This document shows, one piece after another, positions 23,057 through 37,955 of a DNA stretch of 64,000 bases; within the stretch, counting starts at the first letter, position 1, and every line of letters starts with the position of its first letter. Under the pieces are notes generated by a model. That model searched no databases. It saw only the letters and a program-made list of their open reading frames with translations, and was not told where the DNA came from. Location: positions 124,001 through 188,000 of the forward strand of contig JAMPUU010000010.1 of assembly GCA_030144965.1 (NCBI GenBank), read 5' to 3'. This stretch comes from Nitrospira sp. BO4 (GTDB taxonomy: Bacteria; Nitrospirota; Nitrospiria; Nitrospirales; Nitrospiraceae). A program made the translations under genes and the position numbers.

Positions 23057-23685
23057 GATCTATCCTCTGGAAATTGCTAAAAAATGTGTCAGGGTAGCCA
23101 CATATCGTGGCGGGTCAGTTTCCCCCGGTGCCGGTGGCCGACTCCCATGGTGCGCCGGACCATTGGAACGAGGCAGGCGGGGTGGGTACAACCGCCCAAA
23201 CGCCAATCACCAGCCAGCTCGAATACTCTATCCTATTGATATTGCTATGATGTCAATGAATAGGTGAGACGTTGAGCCTCCGCCAGGAGGCGTCGAGCCT
23301 TCAGGCCAGACGCTCCGAGCACTCTGGACGAGTCTCCGAGGAGTCTTGTGCGAGTGCCGAGCACTGCAGCCAGAGCCGATCTAGTCAGCATATCGGCTTA
23401 TCGGGGTGAGGGTTGAAAGCTGGCCGGTGACACCTGCTTGCTACGATCTCCCGCGTAAGTCGTTGAATCACAGGCGTGTCCGAGGGATTATAAATCCCTC
23501 TGAGTGATTGTGCGCGGCTTGGCTGCTACGGTTCTTTCTTCTACGGTAATGGTCGCAGATTACTTCGACTCGCGCCTCACCAGTATCCACATCCAATTCG
23601 ATCCGAGCACCAAGCGACCACATGAACGCCGCCAAGTGCGCGTGTGCTCGTGTTTATCATTTACCTCAAAGGAGTCTGTGCGGGT
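23057..23685. other. 629-bp region without a convincing gene
   Basis: Three things are visible. At 23090-23190 there is a GC-rich stretch with repeated GTGGC/GGTGGCC words that resembles the terminal-repeat region of an IS (perhaps IS21-like); this is a weak impression. At 23273-23284 lies TGAGCCTCCGCC, repeated exactly at 24325-24336, followed by a GCCTCC/GGAGGC hairpin. At 23482-23500 there is a perfect dyad. No ORF here has coding character. Confidence 0.4.
23482..23500. promoter_or_regulatory. Perfect 19-bp dyad GAGGGATT-ATA-AATCCCTC
   Basis: An 8-bp perfect inverted repeat with a 3-bp centre, ~185 bp upstream of the next gene. It could be an operator or a small hairpin. There is no T-run after it, so a terminator is unlikely. 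Confidence 0.4.
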
Positions 23686-24324: not shown

Positions 24325-24814
24325 TGAGCCTCCGCCGAGGGAGTATGAGTGCATCCTCAATAATACTGCGGTGTTCGAGATTACTTAGTACCTGTTACAA
24401 GACGATTAGGACACCATAATCACTGCTCTGGTAGCTACGATTCACATTCATACGGTCTGTGGATACGTTTCTAAGGCATACGTAGCGGTACAACTAATAG
24501 TGGAGCCAAATATGAGAGGCACAACTATCTACGTAGTTTCCACATACGGATCGTATTGATTTACATAAGGAATAATTACCCCTCCGTTAATAGAGGGAAA
24601 ACGTGACGAGATTATGACTTCCCTTATAGCCCAGATAAACGTCATGTGCTCTTCGGTCTCCATTCCATTACGGCCTGCTTTATGACCCGATAAACGCCTG
24701 CTGGGTCTCTACCTGGCAGGCTTGAATGTCCAATTCTGCATAACAATCGTGCCCTCACCCTTTCCCCGTTTCATGGCCGAAGTGCCTGAGCGGAGCAGTC
24801 AAAATAGGTGCCCA
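24325..24814. other. 490-bp AT-richer non-coding region
   Basis: No ORF with coding character. It contains related words CATACGTAGC, CTACGTAG and CACATACGGATCG, a CCCTC/GAGGG hairpin (24580-24597), and two GATAAACG motifs ~57 bp apart. It precedes the long plus-strand run that starts at 24815 and probably contains its promoter; no clear -35/-10 pair was identified. Confidence 0.35.
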
Positions 24815-25078
24815 ATGTCCAACAAGAAACTGTACAGCGTCCGTACCGGCACATCCAGGCGAGTAACCATGAGCCTGTCTGAATCCACCGTGGAGGGACT
24901 GACAGAACTCCAAGAGCTATTCCAAAGCCGGTGGCCGAAGGAAGCATATCCCAGCCTGTCTTGCATCTTGAACAGTGTACTGGCCGAACGGCTGGCTGCT
25001 TACGAGGAAGATCCAGAATTATTGGTGGAGGACTTAAGAGATTTTCGAGTTCGATACCATCGTAAGGAGAAGGTGTAA
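24815..25078 (+). CDS. Small protein, ribbon-helix-helix-like, unknown function
   Basis: An 87-residue protein (MSNKKLYSVRTG...). Residues 15-50 (RRVTMSLSESTVEGLTELQE then an Ala/Leu-rich helix ILNSVLAERLAAY) have the strand-helix-helix spacing of CopG-like DNA-binding proteins. The match is weak. It ends 2 bp before the gp14-like gene, so the two are co-transcribed. An earlier ATG (24722 or 24773) is possible but gives a Cys/Pro-rich N-terminus without a ribosome site. Confidence 0.5.
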   Translation: MSNKKLYSVRTGTSRRVTMSLSESTVEGLTELQELFQSRWPKEAYPSLSCILNSVLAERLAAYEEDPELLVEDLRDFRVRYHRKEKV

Positions 25079-25080
25079 CC

Positions 25081-25812
25081 ATGAACTTACTAGATCAACT
25101 CATCAACGGCAGCAGTTCTCCACTACAGAAGTTCAATCTCACCTGCGAGCCAGTAACAATGGCAATGGGCGGAATGTCACTCGCGTCTGCTGGAATGAAC
25201 ATCTACGGTCAATTTCAAGCGAGAGACACGCACAACCAGACCGAGGAATACCGCAGGCTGGAGCAAGAGAACGTCATCGAAGAGAATCGTCGGCGAGCAA
25301 CCCACGATTACCTCACGAACACACGGCTAGAGCAACAGCAGGAGGATCAAGAGAAGGCTGCACTCGCTCAGAAGGTTGTCGATCTTCAGATGCAGGCGGA
25401 CAGGTCGATTGCAACCGGCATCGCGTCTGCTGCTGAACGTGGTGTGGCGGGTCGGACAGTCGATCAGATTGTTTCCGACTTTGACTTCATGGCCAACGAG
25501 GAAAGCGGACGACTGAAAGAGAATCAGAAGCTCGCCAGCCTGCAACACGGCGAAAACATCCGAAGCCTCGGCACTGAGTACTCGAACCGAATCGCCGCCG
25601 TGAAACCATACGTGAAACAGCCAGCGAAGCCCATCGACTTCTTTGGTCCGATCTTCCAGGCAGGCGCACAGACATTGAGCACCGATGTTGCCGTCAGCCG
25701 AGCAAACCCAACCGCGAATACCTTCACGAACTGGGCTAGCAAGCCATCAACACCAACAGCAGGAACGCAGCGATACAACCCGCTGTCTGGCTTCCCAAGC
25801 GTAGGTGTGTAA
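25081..25812 (+). CDS. T7 gp14-like internal virion (ejection core) protein
   Basis: Podovirus internal virion proteins of the gp14 type are ejected into the host to form part of the DNA translocation channel. This 243-residue protein has the family hallmarks: a CEPVT motif (residues 22-26) followed by a small-residue hydrophobic segment (MAMGGMSLASAGMNIYGQFQ). A long Gln/Glu/Arg/Ala coiled stretch follows, then AAERGVAGRTVDQIVSDFD and KENQKLASLQHGENI. A GGAGAAGG site precedes the ATG. The 20 residues before CEPVT are an extra N-terminus relative to many homologues. No other virion gene is recognisable nearby, which is odd for a prophage. Confidence 0.72.
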   Translation: MNLLDQLINGSSSPLQKFNLTCEPVTMAMGGMSLASAGMNIYGQFQARDTHNQTEEYRRLEQENVIEENRRRATHDYLTNTRLEQQQEDQEKAALAQKVVDLQMQADRSIATGIASAAERGVAGRTVDQIVSDFDFMANEESGRLKENQKLASLQHGENIRSLGTEYSNRIAAVKPYVKQPAKPIDFFGPIFQAGAQTLSTDVAVSRANPTANTFTNWASKPSTPTAGTQRYNPLSGFPSVGV

Positions 25813-26026
25813 GCCTTCCACCAGCTCACCAGTGTCTCGTCTTGAGACTCGACCTAAGAGCCGTTCCTACGGAGAGGCTCCAGGGAACATGACCCCACCA
25901 TCGAACTCTCTGTAGAGTGCCAAAATCGACCCTCAATAAGATCAATCGTTTCAATGGTTTATAAAATGCTTCCGGCCTGGTGAGCCTGGGTCGGAGGTTT
26001 CCCTTGGAGGAGAGAAAGAGTGCACC

Positions 26027-26341
26027 ATGACCAGTACATTTCCAGAACGTCTGAAGCCCTTGGCTGAGAAGTTCTATCAGCAAGCCTTATCCCATCCTGC
26101 CTATTTGCTCATGTCTCCCAGTGAGGTCAGGCAGTCCGTTGAGAACCGGCTGTTCTCTTTCGTGAAGAAGTCACCCTGGTGGTTCGGTCAACTGGCGAGT
26201 GACCGGCCCAAGCGAGCCATGACTGAAGCTCAACTTCAAGCATTGAAGAAAGCGAGACTGGCGAAAGCCGCTCTAACCGAAGAGGAACTGCTTCGTGAAC
26301 GGAGAATCAACGAAAGAATCGAAGCGTCTTCAGCAGCGTGA
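26027..26341 (+). CDS. Small phage-like protein, unknown function
   Basis: A 104-residue Lys/Arg/Ala-rich protein, mostly helical (LQALKKARLAKAALTEEELL). A TTGGAGGAGAG purine run lies ~12 bp upstream of the ATG. A Trp-rich segment (VKKSPWWFGQLASDRPKR) sits mid-protein. I do not recognise a family. It is followed by an overlapping gene in another frame, an arrangement common in phage early or middle regions. Confidence 0.5.
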   Translation: MTSTFPERLKPLAEKFYQQALSHPAYLLMSPSEVRQSVENRLFSFVKKSPWWFGQLASDRPKRAMTEAQLQALKKARLAKAALTEEELLRERRINERIEASSAA

Positions 26342-26555
26342 CGCCGTGAAGGCGTGGTTCGCCAAACGTCCAAACTATGCACGTGAGTACCGAGAACGAC
26401 AGAAGCAACTCAGAGCAGAACTCGGGTGCTCACTCAATGGAACTCTGTCAGTTAAGACAGTTCACAAACACAAACAAGAGAACAGGAGGAAACATGAACC
26501 ACAATCCCTTTCAAGTTCCAATCACGAAACCTTCGAACCCACCGACACCTGGTAA
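26295..26555 (+). CDS. Small basic protein overlapping its neighbours, unknown function
   Basis: An 86-residue ORF from a GTG at 26295, overlapping the previous gene by 47 bp and the next by 62 bp. The N-terminal part contains QRDAVKAWFAKRPNYAREYR, resembling the RPxYxxEYxxR words in short phage and plasmid proteins. The C-terminal half is Asn/His/Ser-rich and less gene-like. Without homology this remains tentative. Confidence 0.38.
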   Translation: MNGESTKESKRLQQRDAVKAWFAKRPNYAREYRERQKQLRAELGCSLNGTLSVKTVHKHKQENRRKHEPQSLSSSNHETFEPTDTW

Positions 26556-26727
26556 CACTCTCCCCTGTCCAGTTTGTGGGAAGGATCAGTTCATTCCCTC
26601 TCAGTGGAGAGTTTGCCTTTCGTGCGACGAATCACTGGGCGTTCCTCTGCACGATGCTTCGCCACAAACGATGAGGCAATGGACCGGAGTTGGCGTGTGG
26701 CCGAGTGCCGTCGCCGGTCGTGCCTGA
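26494..26727 (+). CDS. Small zinc-ribbon protein
   Basis: A 77-residue protein with CPVCGK and CLSCDE, giving a four-Cys zinc ribbon (spacing ~17). AGGAGG lies 4-5 bp before the ATG at 26494, which decides this start over an upstream ATG at 26377. N-terminal Pro-rich tail (VPITKPSNPPTPGN). Possible nucleic-acid binding; specific role unknown. Confidence 0.6.
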   Translation: MNHNPFQVPITKPSNPPTPGNTLPCPVCGKDQFIPSQWRVCLSCDESLGVPLHDASPQTMRQWTGVGVWPSAVAGRA

Positions 26728-26780
26728 AGAGAAGAGAAGAGGAATGATGAAACGGAAAACTACCAGACCAAGGAGACACC

Positions 26781-27038
26781 ATGTCCGCACGATTTCAACT
26801 CGGCGCAACGACGCCAAAACACAATCGACCTCTGACTGCATCCGAGTTAGAACGGTTGCGCACTGAAGAGAAGCAGTTTCACCGACTCCAATACCGGCCA
26901 GGCTCAACCTGTGCCTATTGTCGGTGTGGTTTCCTACTGCGTGATGTGACCAAGCGAGACGTTCAGATCCGACATGACATGCATGTTCACGAAGTCATGG
27001 AAGTATTCGAGGAACGGTGGTCGTCGTATGGCAACTAG
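26781..27038 (+). CDS. Small putative zinc-finger protein
   Basis: An 85-residue protein with CAYCRCGF and, ~20 residues on, IRHDMHVHEVME, so a Cys/His zinc site is possible. GGAGACACC precedes the ATG. It overlaps the next gene by 11 bp, and its N-terminal half is a basic helix (SELERLRTEEKQFHRLQYRP). Family not recognised. Confidence 0.55.
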   Translation: MSARFQLGATTPKHNRPLTASELERLRTEEKQFHRLQYRPGSTCAYCRCGFLLRDVTKRDVQIRHDMHVHEVMEVFEERWSSYGN

Positions 27039-27528
27039 AAAACAGGAGCCGTCCAAAGTCGTCTTGACGACGACCAGGCGACGGCACAAAACAGTTCCCA
27101 CCTATCCAGGCCCTTCACAGGCTGAAGTCGAGGCGCTGAGTGATGAGAAGGTGTCAGAAGAATTGCTACGACTTAAGATTGAGCCGCACACGCTCTCCCA
27201 TGTGGAGGATGACGAGCTGCTCATTGCGGCCCACGGCGAGAAGGACTACGGCCATAAGTGGACGAAGCACGATCTCAAGGAGCTACGCCAGCAGGTCTAC
27301 GATTGGCACCATCGCTGTCTGAAAGATCAACTGCTCTCTGGCTACATGGCTGAATGGATCACTTCACTGAGTGAAGACGCCTGCTGGATGATCGTTGAGG
27401 AGTTCGAGCAAAAGAAGATCGCACTCAGCGAGAGACGGTACACCAGCCGTGACCAACTGAGGAGACGAGCTGGGTGGGCAGTCTACGCGAGTGAGTGCCA
27501 AAACAATCAACCGAGGGAGATTCAATGA
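27028..27528 (+). CDS. Unknown phage-like protein
   Basis: A 166-residue protein starting MATRKQEPSKVVLTTTRRRH with a basic N-terminus. Acidic and mixed helices follow (LSDEKVSEELLRLKIEP, WTKHDLKELRQQVYDWHHR, DQLLSGYMAEWITSLSEDA) and a basic C-terminus. The ATG lies within the end of the previous gene, a typical coupled start. No domain is recognised. Confidence 0.5.
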   Translation: MATRKQEPSKVVLTTTRRRHKTVPTYPGPSQAEVEALSDEKVSEELLRLKIEPHTLSHVEDDELLIAAHGEKDYGHKWTKHDLKELRQQVYDWHHRCLKDQLLSGYMAEWITSLSEDACWMIVEEFEQKKIALSERRYTSRDQLRRRAGWAVYASECQNNQPREIQ

Positions 27529-27727
27529 ATTGAAATTGAACAAACACAACTTGCCAGTACTACCAACTCCACCAAAGAAACCACAGCGCGGAGGCTGTGA
27601 CTTCAACTTCGAGGGCAACCGCGCCTACGCCTTTCTTGCAGTGCAGGCGTTCCAATCTGAGCTGCGCACCAAAGGCCGTATAGAGCGACGATGCCAGAAG
27701 CATCCTCAGTCGAATGATCTATGGTGA
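27491..27727 (+). CDS. Small unknown protein, overlaps previous gene
   Basis: A 78-residue ORF from GTG at 27491, overlapping the previous gene by 38 bp. Pro/Lys-rich N-terminus (HNLPVLPTPPKKPQRGG), then a short helix with AYAFLAVQAFQSEL and a basic tail. Plausible because of the compact gene order, but it has no clear ribosome site. Confidence 0.35.
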   Translation: MSAKTINRGRFNELKLNKHNLPVLPTPPKKPQRGGCDFNFEGNRAYAFLAVQAFQSELRTKGRIERRCQKHPQSNDLW

Positions 27728-27799
27728 GCGCTCGATACGAGGCTCTAGCGAGCTTGGTGAGCAGCAATAACCTTTTACTTAGGCAACAGGAGACGCACA

Positions 27800-28486
27800 A
27801 TGACGTATCTTCAGAAATTTATCAGTGACGCAATGAACAATGGCTATTCCTACGAAGACGCTGTGAGCGATCCACGCGCCAAAGAAGCCGCACGGCGCGA
27901 TGATGCCGCCGCTCGCAACGCACATCTCCATGCAAGTAAGGCTCAGTACCTCGCAGCTTTCCAGGCCGCGCGTCAGCAGCAGGGCAGTAACCACAAGGGA
28001 TTCATTGACCAAGAGGAGATGCTCCTGGCAATGCAGGATGAGGCGTACGACAAGAATCCTGAGTATCGTGCTGCCGTAGAGGCAATCCTTGCACAGACCC
28101 CCGGTGAAGTACTGGGCGTGAGTGCGACGGCGACGGCAGCGGATGGGACCGTGGTTCGACTCGGTCAGCCCTATTCGACGGAACGCGCAACACCAGAGAG
28201 CATGATGGAGAATGCCTACCGGGAAATGGTGATGGAGCAACTCGCAAACATCGATCACAGCACGGCCAGGGGTCGGTATGAGTATTTGCAGTTCCTCACC
28301 GATCCAAAGAACGCGTTCCTTATCGAGCACACGGAAGGCTTGGTCACTTCTCAGGACCAGCGAACACACCAAGCGATGTTGGATTCTCAGGCCGCTGGGC
28401 AGAATGATCGGATTGAGATTGTGAGTGAAGCAAATGATGGATCAGTTCCACAAGGTTCATTTGGACAAGGGGAGGGAAATCAATAA
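27800..28486 (+). CDS. Unknown acidic helical protein of the element
   Basis: A 228-residue protein, MTYLQKFISDAMNNGYSYED, with Ala/Gln-rich helices (AAFQAARQQQGSN, LLAMQDEAYDKNPEYRAAVE). A middle Thr/Ala segment (GVSATATAADGTVVRLGQPY) and a Gly/Gln-rich tail follow. The composition would fit a structural or scaffold-like phage protein, but I recognise no family. AACAGGAGACG precedes the ATG. Its stop overlaps the next ATG as TAATG. Confidence 0.5.
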   Translation: MTYLQKFISDAMNNGYSYEDAVSDPRAKEAARRDDAAARNAHLHASKAQYLAAFQAARQQQGSNHKGFIDQEEMLLAMQDEAYDKNPEYRAAVEAILAQTPGEVLGVSATATAADGTVVRLGQPYSTERATPESMMENAYREMVMEQLANIDHSTARGRYEYLQFLTDPKNAFLIEHTEGLVTSQDQRTHQAMLDSQAAGQNDRIEIVSEANDGSVPQGSFGQGEGNQ

Positions 28487-28845
28487 TGGCACCACGTAGA
28501 TTCCAGAAGGTGGAGGTCGATGAGCATGAGCCTCACCAAGAGGCAATGCCAGAAGCACCCACCACCGAGGTAAATAATACCGATACGCCCAAGGCGATGA
28601 AGTTCGGTGAGCGTTCAGAGATCGTGAATGTCCCGTACCACGACAGCCCAAGGCATTTCCCATCGGTGAATGTCACGGTCAACCCTGCGGAGCTGCAGCG
28701 AGGAATCGCCAAGCAGAAGCAGGACGTGGCAAAGATGGTTGCTCAGCATGAGGATTACAAACGCGTTCCCAAGGGAGAACGCACACTGACGCACAAAGTT
28801 GATGAAGATCTGGATATCACCACCACGACACGACTGGAGCACTGA
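28486..28845 (+). CDS. Unknown small hydrophilic protein
   Basis: A 119-residue protein with an acidic Pro/Glu/Thr-rich N-terminal third (VEVDEHEPHQEAMPEAP), then NVTVNPAELQRGIAKQKQDV and a C-terminal Thr/Asp-rich end (DEDLDITTTTRLEH). The start overlaps the previous stop (TAATG), so they are coupled. Not recognised. Confidence 0.48.
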   Translation: MAPRRFQKVEVDEHEPHQEAMPEAPTTEVNNTDTPKAMKFGERSEIVNVPYHDSPRHFPSVNVTVNPAELQRGIAKQKQDVAKMVAQHEDYKRVPKGERTLTHKVDEDLDITTTTRLEH

Positions 28846-28847
28846 CC

Positions 28848-29024
28848 ATGTTTGAACAAGATGTGACATTCGCCAATGCACACGAGAAGATGACAGCACT
28901 CGGCCAAGCCTTTGGGATTGACACTCGTACTGTGGATGAGATCCAAAGGCAGGAGTTACAAGAGGCACGTGCAGCCGCGTATCTAGCTGCAGGCCGTCCG
29001 TTCAATCCAGTGAACATCGGATAG
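28848..29024 (+). CDS. Very small Ala-rich protein, last of the coupled run
   Basis: A 58-residue ORF starting 2 bp after the previous stop: MFEQDVTFANAHEKMTALG, then VDEIQRQELQEARAAAYLA and GRPFNPVNIG. It is helical with a short Pro/Asn tail. The tight spacing supports it as a real gene although it is short. Function unknown. It is followed by a CCTGCC/GGCAGG hairpin at 29051-29068 without a T-run. Confidence 0.5.
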   Translation: MFEQDVTFANAHEKMTALGQAFGIDTRTVDEIQRQELQEARAAAYLAAGRPFNPVNIG

Positions 29025-29385
29025 GTGCGTTCAGTCTCTTTGCTCTCTCCCCTGCCGACCTTGGCAGGTCTCCTCACCCGCCCAAATCGTATTTCAAGGC
29101 AGCCCGAAGGAGTGGTTTGCGAACTGCTCCGGTTGGATAACTACATTTGAAATCTGAACGAGTGGCTGAAGGTATCCTTCCAGGTGCGGAAGGACTTGGA
29201 GGAGAGGTTTGCTTTGAGGGTGACGGTAAGGAAGGGAATCAACGTAGCCACGGATAACCCCTTCCCGAGCGTCATGCCTCAAAGCAATCCTCACCCTTGA
29301 GTATAGAGTACACCGTGACCACGTCAATGAAACTAACAACTTCGTTCAAACGAACGACAGAATGTGAAGCAATAGGAGTGTCGTT
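29025..29385. other. 361-bp intergenic region
   Basis: A hairpin (CCTGCC-GACCTT-GGCAGG, 29051-29068) near its start may end the preceding transcript. An 81-codon minus-strand frame (29094-29339) is open, but has no ribosome site or recognisable motif. An AGGAG site near 29375 belongs to the next gene. Confidence 0.35.
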
Positions 29386-29601
29386 GTGAATCCATCAGTA
29401 TCAGATTTCGAAGGCAAGCCGTTGAGCATGGGTGACTCAGTGGTGTTTATCAGTGCGCCCAACACTCTTCAAAAGGGAATCGTCACCGGGTTCAAGCAGC
29501 TCAGCAAGATCCTGACTGTCGTTGAGATTGTGGTGACACTCGACAACGGCACCAGTCACAGCCTGACGGCGGCTCCATTCGTGTGTGCCAGGCTTTCTTA
29601 A
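29386..29601 (+). CDS. Small beta-rich protein, unknown function
   Basis: A 71-residue protein from GTG with AGGAG 8 bp upstream. The sequence (GKPLSMGDSVVFISAPNTLQ, KGIVTGFKQL, VVEIVVTLDNGTSHSL) looks like a small SH3/KOW-type barrel of the kind found in short phage proteins. This is a fold impression only. Not recognised. Confidence 0.5.
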   Translation: MNPSVSDFEGKPLSMGDSVVFISAPNTLQKGIVTGFKQLSKILTVVEIVVTLDNGTSHSLTAAPFVCARLS

Positions 29602-29635
29602 GCCATGCCAAGGTGCTAGCAAGCTGACACTGGTC

Positions 29636-29649
29636 ATCCACTAGTGGAT
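29636..29649. promoter_or_regulatory. 14-bp perfect palindrome ATCCACTAGTGGAT
   Basis: Perfect palindrome in the gap between two small genes, ~130 bp upstream of the 45-codon gene that precedes the polymerase-like gene. A repressor or integrase-like binding site is possible; no function is shown. Confidence 0.4.
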
Positions 29650-29781
29650 ACCTTGCGGCATATCTAAGTTGCGGTACAGGCTCACCTAATAATTAATGGC
29701 ACCCACTTGTGCATGAGCTGCTCCATTCAAGATTTATGGTGGTATTCTCCGTTGCATCATTCAACTAAGGAGGACCACACC

Positions 29782-29919
29782 ATGGACCAAGCAGCGTTTG
29801 TGAAGCTGATGAACGAGTGCCGAGCGGAGCAAGGACTACCGCTGATGACGAAGCAAGAAGAGAAGGACGACTACGCGGAGTTCATAAGGGAAGAAGAACA
29901 AGCCAGCAGACATAGGTAG
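29782..29919 (+). CDS. 45-residue charged protein
   Basis: Starts at ATG-29782 with AAGGAGG 9 bp upstream, a strong ribosome site that supports translation. Sequence MDQAAFVKLMNECRAEQG, then MTKQEEKDDYAEFIREEEQA: acidic and helical. It lies 103 bp before the polymerase-like gene. Function unknown. Confidence 0.5.
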   Translation: MDQAAFVKLMNECRAEQGLPLMTKQEEKDDYAEFIREEEQASRHR

Positions 29920-30022
29920 ACAACAATGCCAGGGCGGATGGGTCAGCTAGAAATACTGACCAGTGGCCTCCACCACCTTTGAACATCCTCACCCTGGCAC
30001 CCTTTTCAAAGAGGATTGGAAT

Positions 30023-31570
30023 ATGACACTCACACCAGCAGAAAAACTAAGAGCATGGAATAACTTCCATAAGATGAAATCGGACGCAGTACGTGACGGT
30101 GACTTTGCGAAGAAGAACTTCGCAGAGAAACGCATTGCTGAACTGAAGCCGTTCTACTCACAGTTCTGTGACGCCAATAAGTCAACACCTGCACCCGCAG
30201 TAACCCAGAAGGCAACAACGGCAGAACACACTAGCCACACGGTAGCCGAAGAAGACCACACAGCCTTCCACTTCTACGCAGTCTCAGGCAGTCAACGCGC
30301 AGCAGTTCTTGTTGACCGAGTCTTCCAACTCTGGAAGTCGAAGTCATTCAAGCGGGTGCCAGCCGAGACCAAGCTGAGGGATCACTACCAGATTATTGAG
30401 ACCATCGTATCCAACCTTCTCTACTGCGAAGCAATGGATCATGAAGGCGTGAGGTTCAGTCGATCAGAAGAAACCTTCGCTGCGACCTCTCGGTATCGTC
30501 CGGCAGTGTTCAATAAGAGATTTCTCACCATCATGGACGATCTGCACGATCTCGGAATCGTTCATCAGGTAAAGGGTGATCGATGGAAAGCGAGTCAGGT
30601 AAGGAAACACTTCCCTGACCAAAAGACAGTGAAGGTGTATGGCATGAAACAGTCCTACATCACCACAGGGAAAGCACTCACAAGCTTAATGGAGGTATTA
30701 AGCATGACACCAGCAATGTCTGACGTGAACTTCATCAATGAAGGTCGAGAAGTCATCATCCTGAAAAAGGGCGAAGGATCTGCACTCTTGGAATATGCGG
30801 ACGCAGAGTTCCCCGAAGCTGATAAGTACCGCAAGCAGATGGTCATCATCAATGAGATGCTCAACAATGCAGGTGACATACTGACTGGTGAAGCACAGGC
30901 TATCCACGATCAACGTAAGAGACACCTTGTCAGACGGTTCACACATTCCAGCCTGGAATCTGGTGGAAGGTTATGGGAGGGATTTTGGCTGAACGGTATG
31001 AAGCGAGAAGAACGGCCTACGATGCTTAGGCTCAAGGGCGAATCTACAGTGGAACTGGACTTCTCGAATATGATCGTCCGACTTTGCTACCTCGTGGCAG
31101 AGAAACCTGCACCGGCTGGCGATCAGTACATCATCCCTGGCTTAGATCCAGCGAGTCGGGATGGAGTCAAGCGGGTGATATCCACCTTACTGTTCGATAA
31201 CAACCGCAAGCGGGATCGATTCCCGAAGGAGGTTGCACAACTGTTCACACCAGCCGACCGGCAAAAGGGATGGGCCTATGTGTATAAGGCTATCCGAACG
31301 CACCACTACGAACTAAGGGCATACCTCGACTGTGGCTTAGGCCATTACCTCCAGTTCTTGGAAAGTCAGATTCTCATCAACTGTCTTATCCGGTGTGCTC
31401 AGAAGGGTCTGGTAGCCTTGCCGATACATGATTGTCTTGTGGTACCTCGATCCCTGGCTTTCAGGATCAAAGGGATAATGGGACAGACGGTCAGATATAT
31501 GTTTGGAATGGATGCCTGGTTGCCGGTTGAAGAGAAGTGTAAGGGTCAGAAGGATGAGGTAGCAGCATAG
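30023..31570 (+). CDS. Stand-alone family-A DNA-polymerase-like protein (putative element replicase)
   Basis: A 515-residue protein; the ATG at 30023 has AGAGGA ~8 bp upstream and is preferred over GTG-29963. The C-terminal half has family-A-like polymerase motifs: motif A ELDFSNMIVRLCYLV (about residue 343), motif B-like RDGVKRVISTLLFDNN (about 378), and motif C IHDCLVV (about 467), with likely catalytic Asp in A and C. No 3'-5' or 5' nuclease domain is visible. The N-terminal half (residues 1-290) is helical and may bind DNA or primers. Similar unannotated proteins occur on plasmids and islands, as far as I recall. I infer a replication role for this element; it is the largest element-specific protein. 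Confidence 0.6.
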   Translation: MTLTPAEKLRAWNNFHKMKSDAVRDGDFAKKNFAEKRIAELKPFYSQFCDANKSTPAPAVTQKATTAEHTSHTVAEEDHTAFHFYAVSGSQRAAVLVDRVFQLWKSKSFKRVPAETKLRDHYQIIETIVSNLLYCEAMDHEGVRFSRSEETFAATSRYRPAVFNKRFLTIMDDLHDLGIVHQVKGDRWKASQVRKHFPDQKTVKVYGMKQSYITTGKALTSLMEVLSMTPAMSDVNFINEGREVIILKKGEGSALLEYADAEFPEADKYRKQMVIINEMLNNAGDILTGEAQAIHDQRKRHLVRRFTHSSLESGGRLWEGFWLNGMKREERPTMLRLKGESTVELDFSNMIVRLCYLVAEKPAPAGDQYIIPGLDPASRDGVKRVISTLLFDNNRKRDRFPKEVAQLFTPADRQKGWAYVYKAIRTHHYELRAYLDCGLGHYLQFLESQILINCLIRCAQKGLVALPIHDCLVVPRSLAFRIKGIMGQTVRYMFGMDAWLPVEEKCKGQKDEVAA

Positions 31571-31599
31571 GTACCGCGCCTAAGACCTGGCTCCCTATG

Positions 31600-31880
31600 T
31601 AGCACTGTTAAGGAATAAAGAAAAACAATGACTTAGTAAAACTGACCTCAGAATCCTTAACGGTGCCGCAGAGCTACATGACCAATCCTTAATGGTGCTA
31701 GCGAGATACAGGAGATGGTCATAGGAAGAGAGATTCCTTGTGAAGTGAAGACGCAGGGAAAGAGGAAATGGAGGACCGAGACAAGCAGGAGGAACCTGAA
31801 TAACCCCAGTTCCCCATGTAAGCCACCTAAGGAAATTCCAAGTCATTGTAATTATTCAGTTCGCCCATTTCCTTAGGTGG
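31600..31880. repeat. Iteron-like repeats and 14-bp inverted repeat; candidate origin/control region
   Basis: AATCCTTAACGGTGC (31652-31666) and AATCCTTAATGGTGC (31684-31698) are near-identical direct repeats. A third, inverted copy (TAGCACTGTTAAGGAAT) lies at 31599-31615. Further on, CCACCTAAGGAAAT (31823-31836) and ATTTCCTTAGGTGG (31867-31880) form a perfect 14-bp inverted repeat with a 30-bp centre. All contain a CCTTA core. The region lies between the polymerase-like gene and a small basic protein gene, and contains no convincing ORF; this fits a replication origin or an operator array. Confidence 0.5.
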
Positions 31881-31955
31881 GTTGGAGTCTGCCGGAAGCT
31901 AGAAACCGCCAAACCGTTACACCGTTTCAGTAACAATGAAACCAGGAGACTCACG

Positions 31956-32246
31956 ATGACATCCGTAGAACGTGTCCGTGCTCACCGTGCCAGGAAGAAA
32001 GCCGCAGGCGTTACATCCATTTCAGTAACAAGTGAAACGCTCAGAACCGCAGTCGAGGAGTTCAACAAGTTGAATACTGACCTGAAGGCCAAGCTGGCCG
32101 ATCTGGAGTCTTCTGGCCAAGCTACCGCCCTTGGTCAGCAGGTGTTATCCGATTCCGATCTGAAGTACCTTGTGGAGTCAGTCTGGTTTCAAAGCGAGAT
32201 GTACCGAGAGAAGTTCCGATCCTACCGCAGGTCTTTGAAGTCCTAA
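31956..32246 (+). CDS. Small basic protein, possible DNA-binding
   Basis: A 96-residue protein with a strongly basic N-terminus (TSVERVRAHRARKKAAGVTS), a short strand-like segment (VTSISVTSETLRTAVEEF), then a coiled helix. The arrangement recalls plasmid/phage ribbon-helix-helix proteins, in which a basic strand precedes two helices. CAGGAG is ~10 bp upstream of the ATG. It lies immediately after the repeat array, so it might bind those repeats (inference). Confidence 0.5.
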   Translation: MTSVERVRAHRARKKAAGVTSISVTSETLRTAVEEFNKLNTDLKAKLADLESSGQATALGQQVLSDSDLKYLVESVWFQSEMYREKFRSYRRSLKS

Positions 32247-32369
32247 ATCCAGTTGGGATAAAGGGGCCGGTTTCTCTTTACCGGCCTTGGCCTTTCTCTA
32301 TCACGTATTCCTTTGGTATCCTACCTGCCTGCACCAGCCTATGGCGAACAGCAACAGGGTGCCACAAAG

Positions 32370-33041
32370 ATGTCTTCTCCCACTTCGAAAGTAAGGGAAC
32401 TGATTCAAGCAGTATTCATACAGTCCTTTATTTCGCACCCTGAACTTCGAGCAGTATGGCTTACCGCTTCAGTCCAAATTGGTGGCCTATTACGATCTTC
32501 CTCCTTAGACATATCTGTTCACCGAGCAGGAGAGTTGGATCTGGTCCTAAGATGTATGGAGGATGAATTACTATCTGACACTCGTGACACGAAAGCTCCC
32601 GATCCAGCCTACAGTTACCAACTGATGATATCGGAGCTTTGGGTGGGTCATGTTTATGAAATCTTCAGACTGCTCAAGATTCGTGACCTTGTGTCTCAGA
32701 GCGATGAGTTTCAGAGCCTCGCACATCTGTTGGAATTATTGCGCATGACTATCGACAAGCATGAGATTGCGAAGGACAAGAAGCTAGAAGCCCCAGTCCA
32801 AATGAAAAGGTGCCCACCACGAAATGACGATAGCGATTTCTATGAGTACTCGAAACGTGACCTCCAGCGTGGGCACATTATGCCCACCCGGACTTCTCAT
32901 CGCGGTTCTGTGATGTGGCAGGTATTAGATATCGTGTCAGATGAAACATTCTGGATTGAGCGGAGACAACTGTCTGAGAGAATCATCGCACTCTTCAAGA
33001 GCACAACCGCCAGCGGGAGACATCACAAGCCGGGGCCATGA
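32370..33041 (+). CDS. Unknown helical protein of the element
   Basis: A 223-residue protein, MSSPTSKVRELIQAVFIQS. The frame opens at a TTG 57 bp earlier, but ATG-32370 with a weak AGGGTG site is more likely. Mostly helical (LMISELWVGHVYEIFRLLKI, LAHLLELLRMTIDKHEI) with a Cys/Pro/Arg and Asp-rich linker (KRCPPRNDDSDFYEY). No motif recognised. It lies between the basic protein and the methyltransferase. Confidence 0.5.
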   Translation: MSSPTSKVRELIQAVFIQSFISHPELRAVWLTASVQIGGLLRSSSLDISVHRAGELDLVLRCMEDELLSDTRDTKAPDPAYSYQLMISELWVGHVYEIFRLLKIRDLVSQSDEFQSLAHLLELLRMTIDKHEIAKDKKLEAPVQMKRCPPRNDDSDFYEYSKRDLQRGHIMPTRTSHRGSVMWQVLDIVSDETFWIERRQLSERIIALFKSTTASGRHHKPGP

Positions 33042-33126
33042 TTATTTCCATTACCTAAGACACATAACAGCTTCCCTATGTGGCAAAGATGGAGGATAAT
33101 ATGATAACCTAAAACAGGTTTTCAAA

Positions 33127-34008
33127 ATGAAACGCAAAGAAGTGACAAAACCTAACAAGCACACCTCTAAATGGCTTACTCCGTTGCTAAAGGACGGAAC
33201 GCCCTCTCCCGATTTCACTACTGAGCTTGGTACGCTTTTCTTTGGCGATTGTCTCAAGCTTCTTCCTACCTTAAAGCCATCCGTCATAGATACTATCTTT
33301 GCCGATCCTCCCTTCAACATTGGCAAACGGTACGGGAAGAACACAGACGATCTTCGACCTGAAAATGAGTATCTGTCCTGGTGTAGGCAATGGCTTTCTG
33401 AATGTGTTCGTGTTTTAAAACCAGGTGGGGCCTTGTTCCTTTACAACCTTCCAAAATGGAATATTTCCCTCGGCGCATTTCTCTCTGAACAAGGGTTGAG
33501 TTTTCGCCATTGGATTGCCATTGAAATCAGCGCGTGTCTTCCAATCCCTGGCAGACTTCATCCAAGTCATTACAGTCTTCTCTATTTCACTAAGGGGAAA
33601 GCCAACACGTTTCGGAAGATTCGAACACCGGTGGCATTATGTCGGCACTGTGGTGGCGAAGTGAAGGACTATGGCGGACACCGAGGCGCTTTAAATCCAA
33701 AAGGAATAAATCTTAAGGACGTATGGACAGACATCCCGCCGGTTCGTCACCGCAAATTCAAATCCAGCACTCGAACGGCAAATGCGCTTTCAACTAAGAT
33801 TCTCGACCGAGTAATCGAAATATCAACTGATCGTGGAGAGGTCGTCCTTGATCCGTTTGGTGGTAGCGGCACAACCTTTGTAGTTTGCGAGGCAAGAGGC
33901 CGAAGATGGATTGGGATGGAGATTGACCATGGTCATGAGATTGTTGATCGGATAACAAACGGCGAGATCAAAGCCCATAGCAACACTGATTATATTGACG
34001 ACGACTAA
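33127..34008 (+). CDS. DNA methyltransferase (beta-class N4-C/N6-A type) of an R-M system
   Basis: A 293-residue SAM-dependent DNA methyltransferase. Motif IV DPPFN (residues 60-64) comes before motif I DPFGGSGTT (about residue 245), the order of the beta class that methylates exocyclic amino groups. Between them are a target-recognition region and a Cys/His segment (ALCRHCGGEVKDYGGHRG) that might bind zinc. The DPPF variant is common in N4-cytosine and some N6-adenine enzymes. It converges on the restriction gene, overlapping its end by 4 bp. Confidence 0.87.
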   Translation: MKRKEVTKPNKHTSKWLTPLLKDGTPSPDFTTELGTLFFGDCLKLLPTLKPSVIDTIFADPPFNIGKRYGKNTDDLRPENEYLSWCRQWLSECVRVLKPGGALFLYNLPKWNISLGAFLSEQGLSFRHWIAIEISACLPIPGRLHPSHYSLLYFTKGKANTFRKIRTPVALCRHCGGEVKDYGGHRGALNPKGINLKDVWTDIPPVRHRKFKSSTRTANALSTKILDRVIEISTDRGEVVLDPFGGSGTTFVVCEARGRRWIGMEIDHGHEIVDRITNGEIKAHSNTDYIDDD

Positions 34009-34616
34009 CCTTTCGCTCGGCCATCAGTCCCCTTAGGAATTCTTGGCACATCGGTACTCGTAGCATCTTGCTCAATCACAACAATCTCAAAAATGCCTAA
34101 TTCGCATGGCAAACACCGCCAGAAGTCAAGATAGGGTTCAAGCTCCGCATAGTTTCCAATTCTGTCTGTCAGGTAGCGGTAAAGCTCCCGTGAGGGAACA
34201 ATCAACAGGGCGGCGGCGAGATAGCCTTTGATCAAGCCCAATGCCATTTTATTCAGCGCACGGTGGCTCGAAGAAACATTGCCAGTTTCCCATTCAACCG
34301 CCACGATGCTTCCTGATGCCGTCTTGTAAACAATATCTATCTCGCCTGGCTTCTTGCGCACAGCGATTGGCAATGCATACTCATCTATCCAATCTTGCGC
34401 CTTCAGTTCCGCGATGAAGCCATTTTTTATTGGTTCTACTCCGTTGCCCATTCCACGCTTTTTCCCCGATTCTGGGTATATGGTGAATTGGCCGCTTCCG
34501 GGAGGCCATTCCACATTTCTGACGGCAGTGAGCACAGCACTCCTTAACTTTGCCCATTCTTCCGACGTAGAGAATGATCCCCTTGATATGAGAGTTTCGA
34601 TGTGGGCAATCTTCAT
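34005..34616 (-). CDS. BglII/BamHI-like type II restriction endonuclease
   Basis: A 203-residue protein. The N-terminus (MKIAHIETLISRGSFS... with a following WxxxR helix) and the catalytic stretch PGEIDIVY ... VAVEWETGNVSSSHRALNKM fit the BglII/BamHI PD-(D/E)xK group. Likely catalytic residues are Asp 94, Glu 108 and Glu 110. GMGNGVEPIKNGFIAEL precedes the core. Length matches BglII/BamHI (about 210-220). Its target is unknown; if it is BglII-like, a GATC-centred site is possible but unproven. It overlaps the upstream HTH gene as ATGA, so it is coupled to a controller. Confidence 0.72.
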   Translation of the reverse strand: MKIAHIETLISRGSFSTSEEWAKLRSAVLTAVRNVEWPPGSGQFTIYPESGKKRGMGNGVEPIKNGFIAELKAQDWIDEYALPIAVRKKPGEIDIVYKTASGSIVAVEWETGNVSSSHRALNKMALGLIKGYLAAALLIVPSRELYRYLTDRIGNYAELEPYLDFWRCLPCELGIFEIVVIEQDATSTDVPRIPKGTDGRAKG

Positions 34617-34858
34617 TGACTAGATCTTTTTGAGATCTGACGGAGAAGCATTTGAGGATCTTTACCAATGGCCTTCGCAACTTCTAAGAACTCAATTACA
34701 TCTAACCTTCGTTCTCCACGCTCATATTTTGAGACGAATGATTGTGGGCGTGAGAGCCTGGAAGAAAGCTCTGTTTGCGACAGACCAGCACTCTTCCTGG
34801 CCTCAATCAGGATATTGCGAAAGCTTTCGTAAGCCTTTGTGAAAGCTGATTTTGGCAT
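34613..34858 (-). CDS. XRE-type HTH regulator, probable restriction controller (C) protein
   Basis: An 81-residue HTH_3 protein (NILIEARKSAGLSQTELSSR, PQSFVSKYERGERRLDVIE), the size and shape of C proteins that time restriction after methylation. It precedes the endonuclease with a 4-bp overlap. The ATG at 34858 gives a typical length; GTG-34885 is also possible. The dyad-repeat region upstream (34887-34919) could be its operator. Confidence 0.75.
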   Translation of the reverse strand: MPKSAFTKAYESFRNILIEARKSAGLSQTELSSRLSRPQSFVSKYERGERRLDVIEFLEVAKAIGKDPQMLLRQISKRSSQ

Positions 34859-34886
34859 ATCGCCAGCAAGTGACCGAGCGCACACT

Positions 34887-34919
34887 AAACCTTTTTTGGA
34901 ATAAACCCAAAATCGGTTT
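34887..34919 (-). promoter_or_regulatory. Putative controller-protein operator
   Basis: Just upstream of the HTH gene are AAACC (34887-34891), AAACC (34903-34907) and GGTTT (34915-34919). The last two form a 5-bp inverted repeat with a 7-bp centre, and the two AAACC copies are 16 bp apart. Tandem dyads of this layout are typical C-boxes, but the sequence does not match the classical GACT/AGTC type. Confidence 0.4.
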
Positions 34920-35051
34920 GCTGCTGCCGCGAAACCCGAGATGGGGCAAGAGAAAGGTGGTTCACGGAACTTCTCTTAGATTGCTCCTTGCGATTTGGAC
35001 GGTTCGTTTCCTACAATGCGACTGCCTACATGAATTAGGCTCACATCACGC

Positions 35052-35972
35052 ATGGACATCTTGCTAAGAGCCTGGACCGAAGACAACCTATTGTCCCTGA
35101 TTCGTGATGCAGTGGAAGAACGCCTTGACTTGGAATACAAGAGATGTGGAGCCCTTCAACGTGACGATAAGAAGATACAGGAACTCAGCAAGGACGTGTC
35201 TGCGCTTGCCAACTCTACAGGTGGCACCATTGTGTATGGAATGGTCGAGGATGGTCATCTTCCAAAAACCATCGATGAAGGTTTCGATCCGGCAGATATT
35301 AGTAAGGAATGGTTGGCGCAGGTGATCCTTGGCAATATCAGCCCACCACTTCAAGGCGTGACGATTCATCCGGTTCATCTTAGATCTCATTCACGTGGAA
35401 GATATGCGTATGTGGTTTCTGTTCCGCAGAGTACTACAGCTCACCAGGCGAAGGATAAGAGGTACTATAGGCGATATAACACCATTAACGTACCAATGGG
35501 AGATCATGAGATTCGCGATATCATGAACCGCCAGAAGCACCCGGCCTTGGTTCCTCGGTTCAACGTTACGCGGATGACGGATCGCTACAAGTTGACCGTA
35601 AGCCTCGTGAACAAAGGGCAGGTAAGAGCCCAGCACGTGAAGTTGGTATTCTCACTGCCAAAAACTTGTACAACAAGGTCTATTGGGTTCTTAGGTAAAG
35701 TCGTTCACCGGGAAGATGGGTCGTTTGGGAATGATTGGAATGAGTACGTCTTCAAGGGAAATAGTCAGGTCGTTTTTCCAGATGACGAGTTTCCTTTGGA
35801 GGATGTTGGTCACTTCTTATTTGTAAGCTTAGATTCGAGCACGTCCAAGGGAAGTAAATGGGAGTCAGTTGTCCTACACTGGAAAGTGTATGCCGATGAC
35901 ATGCCAGCTACTACTGGTCATCTACTCTTGAAAGACCTTTTCAATCCGGAAGAGTTTGGAGGTCAGAGGTAG
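35052..35972 (+). CDS. Schlafen/AlbA_2-domain protein
   Basis: A 306-residue protein. Residues ~15-145 match the AlbA_2/Schlafen-like ATP-binding domain: EERLDLEYKRCG, DVSALANSTGGTIVYGMVED, then RYYRRYNTINVPMGDHEI. C-terminal residues 170-306 form a beta-rich domain (KLTVSLVNKGQVRAQHVKLV) that I do not recognise. Such proteins are often found in defence or regulatory gene sets; here it lies beside a restriction-modification module, divergent from the controller. Its specific function is unknown. Confidence 0.75.
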   Translation: MDILLRAWTEDNLLSLIRDAVEERLDLEYKRCGALQRDDKKIQELSKDVSALANSTGGTIVYGMVEDGHLPKTIDEGFDPADISKEWLAQVILGNISPPLQGVTIHPVHLRSHSRGRYAYVVSVPQSTTAHQAKDKRYYRRYNTINVPMGDHEIRDIMNRQKHPALVPRFNVTRMTDRYKLTVSLVNKGQVRAQHVKLVFSLPKTCTTRSIGFLGKVVHREDGSFGNDWNEYVFKGNSQVVFPDDEFPLEDVGHFLFVSLDSSTSKGSKWESVVLHWKVYADDMPATTGHLLLKDLFNPEEFGGQR

Positions 35973-36230
35973 TTCCGGTCACGACCACTAGCCGCTTCCG
36001 TACTTCCGGGTATCTCAGCTTCTCCAATCCCTCTTGCAACAGTTTCATCGGCACTCTGTCCCTCTGATCGTACACTTTCCCATGAATCCCTTGTGATGCC
36101 TATCCGTCCAACAACCCCATTGACAGACCCTGCAAGTAAGCATACCCTCACAAACCTACAATCCAACCACAACCTGCCGTCGGGTCGAGGAAGGCCCACC
36201 GCCGACACCTTGTGCGAAAGGCGGTGTCTC

Positions 36231-36422
36231 ATGGCGACCTCTCCTATTCCTTGCTCCGATTTGCGCAAAGAACTGAAGGATTACATTCGTTCCTGCGAAC
36301 GGCTCCTGTACTCTGCAATGCCTTCTGCCAATGCGCCGTTATCAGCGGATGAACGGGAGATGTTGGAGTACTATCAGCAGGAGTTGAGATCGCAGCTCCT
36401 GACGCCAGAGAAGATACACTGA
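36231..36422 (+). CDS. Small protein, first of a tandem paralogous pair
   Basis: A 63-residue protein from ATG-36231 with AAAGGCGG 7 bp upstream; the longer frame to 36093 is not needed. Core: DLRKELKDYIRSCERLLYSA, ADEREMLEYYQQELRSQLL. It shares its pattern (xYRxxIxDYIxSxRRLL, then xDExExLxxxxxxL) with the gene 44 bp downstream. Function unknown; two helices. Confidence 0.55.
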   Translation: MATSPIPCSDLRKELKDYIRSCERLLYSAMPSANAPLSADEREMLEYYQQELRSQLLTPEKIH

Positions 36423-36465
36423 CCTGTTCCCCTGGTTCGGTCAATGTCTAAGGAAGGAACCTGCT

Positions 36466-36630
36466 ATGTCAGATTACCGGCAGAGCATCCGAGACTACAT
36501 TCTTGCCAGCAGAAGACTGTTGGAACTCGGCGAACTCACGGATGATGAATTGGAAGTCCTTCAGGACATGGACGCGCGCCTGGCAGTTCTGTTCGGCGAT
36601 AAGCGGGACCATCCCGCCACCATCACGTGA
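36466..36630 (+). CDS. Small protein, second of a tandem paralogous pair
   Basis: A 54-residue ORF with AAGGAAGGA 8 bp before its ATG. Sequence MSDYRQSIRDYILASRRLLE, ELTDDELEVLQDMDARLAVL. It resembles the preceding gene, suggesting tandem duplication. It ends 13 bp before the integrase stop (convergent). Unknown; perhaps a small regulator. Confidence 0.5.
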   Translation: MSDYRQSIRDYILASRRLLELGELTDDELEVLQDMDARLAVLFGDKRDHPATIT

Positions 36631-36643
36631 CCGCTTCGTTCCT

Positions 36644-37864
36644 TCATACTGGGATTTGTGGCAAGAAGATAGCCTCCACCGCCTCTTGTAGTTCCTTCGG
36701 AGTGTAGGCCAAGGAACCCAGGTACACTCTCTCTTCGACACTCTTACCAACAGCATGCCCAAGCAGCCGCCTCATAAGGGAATAGTGAACCTTCGCCTTC
36801 TCCAGCTTCACCGTTACCGTATGCCTGAGTGAATGTTGCGTGAGTGAAGGCTTTCGTATCCCCAACTGCTTCAACATCCTTGTGAACCAACCAGACGACT
36901 TGGTGACGCCATACGGGTGCAAGAGCGGGAACAGTGAACCTGATAGCTGAGCCTCCTGACGACCCTGGCAGGTCTCCACCCATTCGAGGAAACCGGCCTT
37001 GATGACCGCCGAGTGTATCGGAACAACTCGTTTAGACATTCTGTTCTTCAGTCTCTGTTTCTTCCCTTGATCATCAGAGATCCCCATGCACCAGATCCCT
37101 TCATCCTGGAACACATCGGATTTGTGAAGCTGCGTGATTTCCATTGCTCTGCATCCAGAGTGAGCCAGCACCAGTGTCAGCCAGTACCATTCCACTCTCA
37201 TAGGATCGGTGTGGTTTCTGTACTGCCCCAGTTCCTTGAAGATCATCACGAGATGCTCATCCGTGAAGGCTTCCTTGATGACTTTCGAATTTGAGATCAT
37301 CTTCGGAGGAAGCACCACACCGGCCATCGTGTCCCGGTCCAGGTGATCGTTGGCGACCAACCATTTCACGAAGTGATGGATCGCAGCTAGTTTTCGCGCA
37401 ATCGTGACCGGCCCTGGTTTTCGTTTCCTTGGAGCCTGGGCAGTACCATTTAACAGCATGGTCTTGTAGACCTTGAAGCGTCCTTTATCGAGACCTGTGA
37501 CTGGGAAAGATTCATCCAGGTTGTTGACTGCGAGAAACTGTGTGAGTGCTTCGGTGATGTTGTAGACCCACTCTTTCCGTCGGTGGTTGTGCTCAGCGTT
37601 GTATTGATCGAAGCATTCACCAATGGACGGTCCACACTCAGGCCACGGCCACGGACCAGAATCCTTAAGACGCATAGCTTCAACTCTGGCAGGGTCATAG
37701 GCTGGTGTGCTGATGACTCCTCTTCGTCGTCGTTGTCGTTCGTCAGAGGTAATCTGCGGCGAAGGACCAGAACGAACTTGTCGTTCGTCAGTATGAACTT
37801 GAGGTTGTTTTTGTGTTGCAGCCTTCATGGAAAGCAAGCGTACCAGATCCTCGACGCTTGTCAC
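36644..37864 (-). CDS. int: Tyrosine site-specific integrase of the element
   Basis: A 406-residue tyrosine recombinase. The catalytic domain has Arg in AHSGCRAMEI, a Lys in the beta-hairpin region, HxxR in QHSLRHTVTV, His in RRLLGHAVGKS, and the nucleophile in ERVYLGS. An N-terminal SAM-like core-binding domain (about residues 80-200) precedes it, and the first ~60 residues are basic and may bind arm sites. The start is GTG-37864, or an ATG at 37828. The gene start is ~100 bp from the right att core in ihfA. No excisionase is identified; the small neighbours are candidates. Confidence 0.93.
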   Translation of the reverse strand: MTSVEDLVRLLSMKAATQKQPQVHTDERQVRSGPSPQITSDERQRRRRGVISTPAYDPARVEAMRLKDSGPWPWPECGPSIGECFDQYNAEHNHRRKEWVYNITEALTQFLAVNNLDESFPVTGLDKGRFKVYKTMLLNGTAQAPRKRKPGPVTIARKLAAIHHFVKWLVANDHLDRDTMAGVVLPPKMISNSKVIKEAFTDEHLVMIFKELGQYRNHTDPMRVEWYWLTLVLAHSGCRAMEITQLHKSDVFQDEGIWCMGISDDQGKKQRLKNRMSKRVVPIHSAVIKAGFLEWVETCQGRQEAQLSGSLFPLLHPYGVTKSSGWFTRMLKQLGIRKPSLTQHSLRHTVTVKLEKAKVHYSLMRRLLGHAVGKSVEERVYLGSLAYTPKELQEAVEAIFLPQIPV

Positions 37865-37955
37865 GCCTAAGGATCTGATAGCTTGTAAAATGGCTCTGGT
37901 GGCGGTTTCGCCTGAATTGGCACTTGACTGATCGAGAGCGGATGTTACACTGTCA

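Follow-up and report, generated by a model that had tools for sequence, protein, structure and literature searches.

A predicted TV-Pol-type polymerase and candidate primase in an integrated mobile island of Nitrospira

Introduction

The TV-Pols were set out as a group by Iyer, Abhiman and Aravind in 2008, and the parts of that paper that treat them (PMC2579912) list as their features two Asp residues, a hairpin Arg, a fingers Asp together with an RxxxK motif, the absence of a nuclease and, in a subset, an extra N-terminal domain. Their setting is given there as mobile elements with a lambda-type integrase, a gamma-delta resolvase or a D5 helicase, often near restriction-modification genes, and the proposal was made that they are prim-pols. 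The same authors counted the CcPol protein of SCCmec among the TV-Pols, and experiments established that CcPol, together with its partner MP, acts as a primase, according to the sections of PMC7581432 that concern it. In the corresponding passages of PMC7581432 and PMC10061031, CcPol–MP priming is lost in both D169A and D324A, and CcPol requires a small OB-fold partner and adjoins a helicase gene; CcPol is further described as a dNTP user that keeps E710 and F762, the ribonucleotide-discriminating residues of Pol I (PMC7581432).

A separately described group, divPolA2, has a globular N-terminal domain where a thumb would otherwise be and no exonuclease, as presented in the relevant passages of PMC11348598; those passages name TV-Pol once, for small viruses, and draw no link between it and divPolA2. 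Here we describe a protein that, judged by its sequence and predicted structure, appears to belong to both groups. It is encoded in a 64,000-nucleotide stretch (hereafter the window) that is part of contig C10 in the 4.7-Mb genome of Nitrospira sp. BO4. The kind of polymerase is thus already described, if little studied, and it is the island setting that is new.

The polymerase and its conserved residues

Positions 30023–31570 of the window (plus strand) form a stop-free frame of 515 amino acids, with a longer alternative frame possible from a GTG start at 29963. The original prediction, working by eye, had recognized three ordered motifs with Asp in motifs A and C, and these assignments were right. 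The motifs run in the order A, ELDFSNMIVRL with the putative catalytic Asp346 (31058–31060); the Arg/Lys motif B, SRDGVKRVISTLLF, with the fingers RxxxK Arg379-x3-Lys383 (31157–31171); and C, IHDCLVV with His469-Asp470 (31427–31432), all on the plus strand. Every one of these residues is invariant in alignment A3 (70 sequences chosen out of 103 profile hits), as is the beta-hairpin Arg316 of the GGRL motif (30968–30970, plus strand); the 11 invariant columns in full are Asn277, Arg316, Arg331, Asp346, Asp367, Tyr369, Arg379, Lys383, Leu466, His469 and Asp470.

Standard family libraries are blind to the protein. Zero Pfam or NCBIfam families, nuclease domains included, match it at E <= 10, none of the 70 relatives matches a Pfam DNA polymerase family (E <= 0.1), and searching the PDB with the family profile returned no sequences. 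PHROGs returned phrog_4756, of function unknown, at E 4.5e-22 over residues 103–493. Matches to influenza PA from phmmer, at E 0.3–1, were uninformative and were discarded. We ruled out that the protein is a Pol I or T7 polymerase of the canonical kind, there being no Pfam match at E <= 10, DNA_pol_A (PF00476) included; the host Pol I is a separate frame of 888 amino acids.

Structure prediction is more informative. The AF2 model (67 rows) has a mean pLDDT of 86.2 and a pTM of 0.80, and a Foldseek search of the PDB with it ranked Pol I structures first (best E 1.2e-5), with 87 family-A-type matches at E <= 0.001. Over model residues ~241–509, VIA gave Z scores of 12.7–14.0 among the 50 rows shown, with the apicoplast polymerase at 14.0, yeast mitochondrial RNA polymerase at 13.8, Mycobacterium smegmatis Pol I at 13.6, T7 DNA polymerase at 13.3 and T7 RNA polymerase at 13.1. 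The aligned range of most VIA rows, residues 241–509 (30743–31549, plus strand), delimits a predicted thumb-like/palm/fingers core. On the strength of the model, we predict that the 515-aa protein has a family-A polymerase palm and fingers in this region. Thus the claim of a family-A-like palm without nuclease domains, which would not go together with a fold lacking a polymerase palm, survives: the predicted model contains such a palm, and AF2, Foldseek and VIA agree.

A profile–profile comparison, one of the checks that had been proposed, paired the motif residues exactly with their Pol I counterparts, but its score was weak (E 0.0038, probability 8.8%, in one comparison with a profile of ten bacterial Pol I sequences). 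That profile used 10 of 14 fetched loci, since L001, L115, L119 and L120 failed the motif filter. In the pairing, Arg316 corresponds to the Arg of TGRL, Asp346 to the motif A Asp, Arg379/Lys383 to the RxxxK of helix O, and Asp470 to the motif C Asp; in the AF2 model, Arg316 lies in a predicted strand (314–318) that follows another at 303–306. Running hhalign with the family against single T7 RNA and T7 DNA polymerases aligned unrelated stretches and was uninformative.

The original prediction had also described a novel N-terminus of ~290 residues, and this part did not hold. The core begins near residue 241 and residues ~79–240 align throughout the family, and so the N-terminal domain (residues 79–256; 30257–30790, plus strand) is common to the family rather than novel in this protein. 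Residues 1–78 are helical in the AF2 model, much of them at low confidence. Modelled alone, the N-terminal domain is of mixed alpha/beta type (pLDDT 87.9), and Foldseek found nothing for it at E <= 0.001. VIA gave Z scores of 5–6.2, which are below the tool's stated noise level, to winged-helix proteins and the N-terminal region of T7 RNA polymerase; the best row (6.2) is a Pol III subunit and the second (6.0) is that T7 region. The winged-helix-like arrangement lacks significance in both searches, and a DNA-binding winged helix in this domain is a guess.

Relation to described polymerases

The placement among the TV-Pols is by published feature description and that among divPolA2 by homology. 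The protein has, in 70/70 rows of the alignment, the two Asp of motifs A and C (Asp346, Asp470), the absolutely conserved beta-hairpin Arg (Arg316), and the fingers Asp367 with the RxxxK of Arg379/Lys383; the predicted model, Foldseek and VIA indicate the RRM-like palm of superfamily A; and a nuclease domain is absent (Pfam/NCBIfam, E <= 10). The mobile-element setting also agrees, with an integrase and an empty site here and a recombinase in 75/92 of the relatives' loci. There are differences as well: the N-terminal domain of TV-Pols is called all-helical in the parts of PMC2579912 that describe it, whereas the domain modelled here mixes alpha and beta elements in a weakly winged-helix-like arrangement, and no D5 helicase of the kind found in TV-Pol settings was recognized among the scanned island ORFs. 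The TV-Pol-bearing Microcystis phage Ma-LMM01 gave no match to the family profile at E <= 1.

With divPolA2 the connection is a direct one. Profile A3 matched AUR84708, given as the divPolA2 representative in the passages at hand of PMC11348598, at E 2.5e-29 as a single hmmsearch target and at E 4.7e-27 when searched together with the other ORFs of a 50-kb stretch. The predicted full-length fold is common to phage proteins, including the barbavirus protein annotated as 'DNA polymerase' in Rheinheimera phage Barba31A (BFVD E 5.5e-19; best row 3.2e-21), and the protein shares with divPolA2, as there described, an N-terminal globular domain and the absence of an exonuclease. In the same passages, divPolA2 is reported in tailed phages beside another DNA polymerase, whereas the present protein lies in a bacterial island, and no second polymerase was recognized among the scanned island ORFs by Pfam or PHROGs. 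By these sequence comparisons, we class the 515-aa protein as TV-Pol-type (divPolA2-type), and it seems that TV-Pol and divPolA2, though described separately, are a single family.

The comparison with the biochemically studied enzymes is more qualified. Like the CcPol–MP/PolA-SSB primases of SCC, as far as the published passages at hand describe them, the protein has a family-A polymerase domain and resides in a recombinase-bearing island with defence cargo. It departs from them in nucleotide-selection residues, N-terminal domain and neighbours. CcPol, in its partial description, keeps E710 and F762, whereas Ile351 and Ser387 stand at the aligned positions here. Across the family, Glu occurs at the former position in 0/70 rows (Gly 20, Ala 13, Asn 8, Phe 7, Ser 6, others 16) and Phe at the latter in 0/70 (Asn 32, Ser 18, Ala 6, Gln 6, Leu 5, Val 2, Gly 1), and the position of the helix O Tyr is Phe in 44/70 rows and Tyr in 1/70. 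T7 RNA polymerase, like Pol I, uses Tyr at this helix O position. The loss of E710 and F762 argues that sugar selection in the family differs from that of CcPol, and is not proof of RNA synthesis; because the residues by which Pol I excludes ribose are lost, ribonucleotide use by the family is plausible. The N-terminal domain of CcPol, in the passages that cover it, differs from the one here, and PolA-SSB primases are there given an adjacent COG3378 or DUF927 helicase, whereas no helicase family was found in the scanned island ORFs. Membership in the PolA-SSB primases was therefore ruled out, with no neighbouring helicase recognized and the Pol I gate residues absent.

Relatives and their surroundings

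Within the genus, TV-Pol is present in 6/79 genomes, at 7 loci. A gp14-like gene was found near it by tblastn in 2/7 of these loci, those of the window and of genome G327; three others are on stretches of <=10 kb. The G327 locus (L140, 554–13391) is an element between duplicated tRNA-Leu copies 12,748 bp apart that holds a resolvase, the gp14-like gene, TV-Pol and a TIR-domain protein. Beyond the genus, 299/375 stretches of the genome collection were confirmed, the best 80 of the 299 being mostly from Pseudomonadota by their titles, and 9/44 stretches from viral contigs were confirmed. Searching viral contigs with P0001 alone led nowhere, and a methylobacterial relative searched against plasmids gave the same 3 records and nothing further.

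Phages carry relatives too. With a query from Vibrio phage qdvp001 (L005, 5146–6690), 170 phage records were found, many of them from the ICP1 group and other large Vibrio and Aeromonas phages; in the rows shown, they are 'hypothetical proteins'. Phage qdvp001 itself has two TV-Pol copies. On the Thioclava plasmid pTElox9 (L007, 5833–8912), a shortened TV-Pol is immediately preceded by an IS21-type insertion, which may have removed the N-terminal domain of the protein.

The surroundings of TV-Pol were surveyed at 92 of 109 loci (TV-Pol matches >150 bits, 5 duplicates omitted, window not counted), with neighbour clusters named by eye from one representative sequence each. Serine recombinases were found in 55/92 loci, tyrosine recombinases in 61/92 and either in 75/92; among the loci with both flanks > 4.5 kb, 49/56 had one or the other. 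An HsdR-like gene occurs in 13/92, and a crude motif test placed a large ORF with Walker A and DExx within 5 kb of TV-Pol in 4/92. In 43/92 loci there is a Cys/His-rich neighbour of ~236 amino acids (e.g. L032, 11280–11990), usually directly 3' of TV-Pol at a median distance of 62 bp, which makes it a possible partner; none was seen in the window.

The island and its sister islands

The polymerase gene lies in an integrated island of 15,390 bp (22581–37970), delimited by comparison with an empty site and by core repeats. Copies of the 9-bp core ATTGACGTA lie at 22572–22580 on the left and 37962–37970 on the right; in genome G276, of the same species, the two flanks abut at the empty site and have one copy of these 9 bp in common. 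The insertion point is the 3' end of an HU-type gene (named by eye; 37956–38231, minus strand), the last codons and stop of which are restored by the island. G+C content is 0.509 in the island and 0.547 and 0.556 in the flanks. Next to the right end is a tyrosine integrase (36644–37864, minus strand; Phage_integrase E 1.7e-11).

Plus-strand genes to the left of the polymerase include one for a small backbone protein (24722–25078), RHH-like by eye only, with a homologue in sister island L137 and weakly in L138; a homologue of the T7 gp14 internal virion protein (25081–25812; PF24072 E 5.4e-18); a frame with a weak head-assembly family match (27800–28486; phrog_1052 E 4.1e-7, over the C-terminal 77 profile positions only); and a 70-aa backbone frame (29707–29919) immediately upstream of the polymerase slot. 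The neighbouring ORF downstream of the polymerase is at 31956–32246. Cargo follows, with a compact BamHI-like restriction-modification set and regulator (33127–34885) made up of a type II DNA methyltransferase (33127–34008, plus strand; N6_N4_Mtase E 1e-40), a BamHI-like restriction endonuclease (34005–34616, minus strand; PF02923 E 2.3e-52) and an HTH_3 protein (34613–34885, minus strand; E 3.8e-10) that is probably the regulator of the pair, and then with a Schlafen AlbA_2 domain protein (35052–35972, plus strand; E 1.8e-14). Among the scanned island ORFs, Pfam and PHROGs recognized no helicase, and the family scans no portal, capsid or terminase; no PADLOC family matches the polymerase.

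Phage satellites (PICI, P4-like and PICMI), in the portions of their descriptions available, likewise have an integrase, an exchangeable replication gene and defence cargo, and they share with these islands site-specific integration, a near-constant size (15.39, 15.23 and 14.94 kb here) and the lack of a recognized capsid/terminase set. Unlike them, the present island carries a T7-gp14-like internal virion protein. The islands resemble phage satellites, judging by their integrase, defence cargo, gene of virion type and nearly uniform size, and by the absence of recognized capsid genes among the scanned ORFs. Against 50,697 phage records, the gp14-like protein had no match at E <= 1e-3; in viral contigs, its profile was confirmed in 0/600 stretches and that of a 226-aa backbone protein in 0/57. 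The backbone profile matched only 2 of 295 genomes of the phylum, both of the genus Nitrospira. Our literature searches found no matching work on satellites in Nitrospira or on satellites with ejection proteins.

The window genome has a second, sister island, L137 (contig C20, 3742–18989), bounded by 19-bp direct repeats 15,229 bp apart, and genome G208 of the genus has another, L139/L151 (contig C24), whose 18-bp repeats are separated by 14,936 bp. Both are colinear with the island of the window: L137 holds homologues of eleven of its plus-strand backbone genes and L139 of nine, in the same order (Kendall tau 1.0 for each). There is also a third island in the window genome, L138 (7322–10501), cut off at the end of contig C26, that matches the others in its left half; here the gp14-like gene is broken into two frames. 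The cargo of L137 differs from that of the window island and includes a TIR protein and endonuclease VII.

No TV-Pol is found in the sister islands; the gene is single-copy in the window genome and absent from G208. What fills the polymerase slot instead? Directly after the homologue of the 29707–29919 frame, L137 has a 624-aa ORF (11607–13481) with GTGKT and YDES motifs (by eye), and L139 has a homologue of it, 672 aa long (15217–17235), following the last of its matched backbone genes; the two are 27% identical (E 7e-57). Helicase support from families is limited to a ResIII match of the L137 ORF at E 0.0067, under the cut-off; the L139 ORF has none. That polymerase and helicase-like gene replace each other at this position suggests that both serve the initiation of replication, or at the least that the position is the replication slot. 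It also follows from sister islands with a helicase-like gene in place of TV-Pol that the polymerase is not essential to this type of island.

Proposed role and alternatives

What the computation shows is the fold, the presence of every catalytic and fingers residue, the location in an island that looks excisable, and the exchange of this one gene for a helicase-like ATPase gene. The reading that we favour, at a probability of about 0.58, is that the protein is a TV-Pol-type primase-polymerase, carried by an integrated mobile island, that primes island DNA after excision. The integrase would excise the island, and the polymerase would bind single-stranded or melted island DNA, presumably via its N-terminal domain. 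The palm site, using two metals at Asp346 and Asp470, would then lay down a short primer de novo, perhaps elongating it as well, with bulk synthesis left to replication enzymes of the host or of a helper phage. Primase activity is suggested here by analogy with the SCCmec CcPol and TV-Pol literature, and replication of the island after excision is likewise our supposition.

The original prediction had called the protein the likely replicase of the element. As the main replicase it would work alone, elongating primers and duplicating the entire island independently of the host replicase. A complete family-A active site, the predicted fold and the location in a mobile element would all suit such an enzyme, yet we consider this role unlikely: the relative CcPol, in the passages describing it, is a primase that needs its partner MP to start, the protein has no exonuclease domain, no recognized helicase or clamp-type partner was found in scanned island ORFs, the host has its own Pol I, and two sister islands of near-equal size have a helicase-like gene in place of TV-Pol. 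Primase-polymerase, which had been offered as an alternative, is the likelier function by analogy because CcPol, itself counted among the TV-Pols, proved in experiments to prime together with a partner protein; it also matches the 2008 proposal (PMC2579912). Could the enzyme instead be a single-subunit RNA polymerase of the T7/mitochondrial type, transcribing island genes or making long RNA primers? The absence of Pol I E710 and F762 from 70/70 rows would allow for this, as would Z scores to mitochondrial and T7 RNA polymerases (12.8–13.8) that tie with those to DNA polymerases (12.7–14.0) in the rows shown, and the divPolA2 authors considered it too, in the part of PMC11348598 that discusses function. 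Such ties do not discriminate, however, the N-terminal resemblance to T7 RNA polymerase (Z 6.0) is below the stated noise level, the helix O Tyr is kept in only 1/70 rows, and 515 amino acids is far below the 883 of T7 RNA polymerase; we regard this role as quite unlikely.

Two further explanations take the gene out of island replication altogether. Repair, bypass or defence-related work as cargo would fit islands that bear defence genes and has a precedent in the divPolA2 phages, which also have a regular polymerase and for which repair was proposed (PMC11348598, in the relevant passages). It is very unlikely here, since the gene sits in a backbone slot rather than the cargo stretch, with a homologue of its upstream neighbour (29707–29919) immediately preceding the helicase-like gene of L137, and matches no PADLOC family. 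That the gene is an inactive relic might be thought from its single copy and its absence from the same-species genome G276, but the open 515-aa frame, the retention of all invariant residues of the 70-row alignment and the precise island ends make decay a most improbable account.

A broader picture can be drawn around the favoured primase-polymerase, and we offer it tentatively, as unlikely in its entirety. The islands would be Nitrospira-specific satellites of T7-like phages, ~15 kb in size and with their own gp14-like ejection protein, and their replication-start modules would be interchangeable, either a helicase-like ATPase or a self-contained A-family primase with a template-binding domain in the same chain, no SSB partner, an RNA-polymerase-like site and ribonucleotide priming.

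Outlook

Only recently have A-family primases emerged as a departure from the DnaG/AEP rule; among them, only the SCC enzymes have been biochemically tested in the literature covered. The polymerase described here and its relatives, in 299 confirmed stretches of genome contigs, form a large Pfam-invisible set in which the N-terminal domain and the nucleotide-selection site are different from those of the SCC enzymes. These differences make further questions testable: did A-family priming arise once with RNA or with DNA, and is a single chain enough? In the sister islands, nature has exchanged this one gene while the background stays colinear, a pointer to what the gene does. Finally, a link between TV-Pol and divPolA2 would unite two groups of polymerases that have been described separately.
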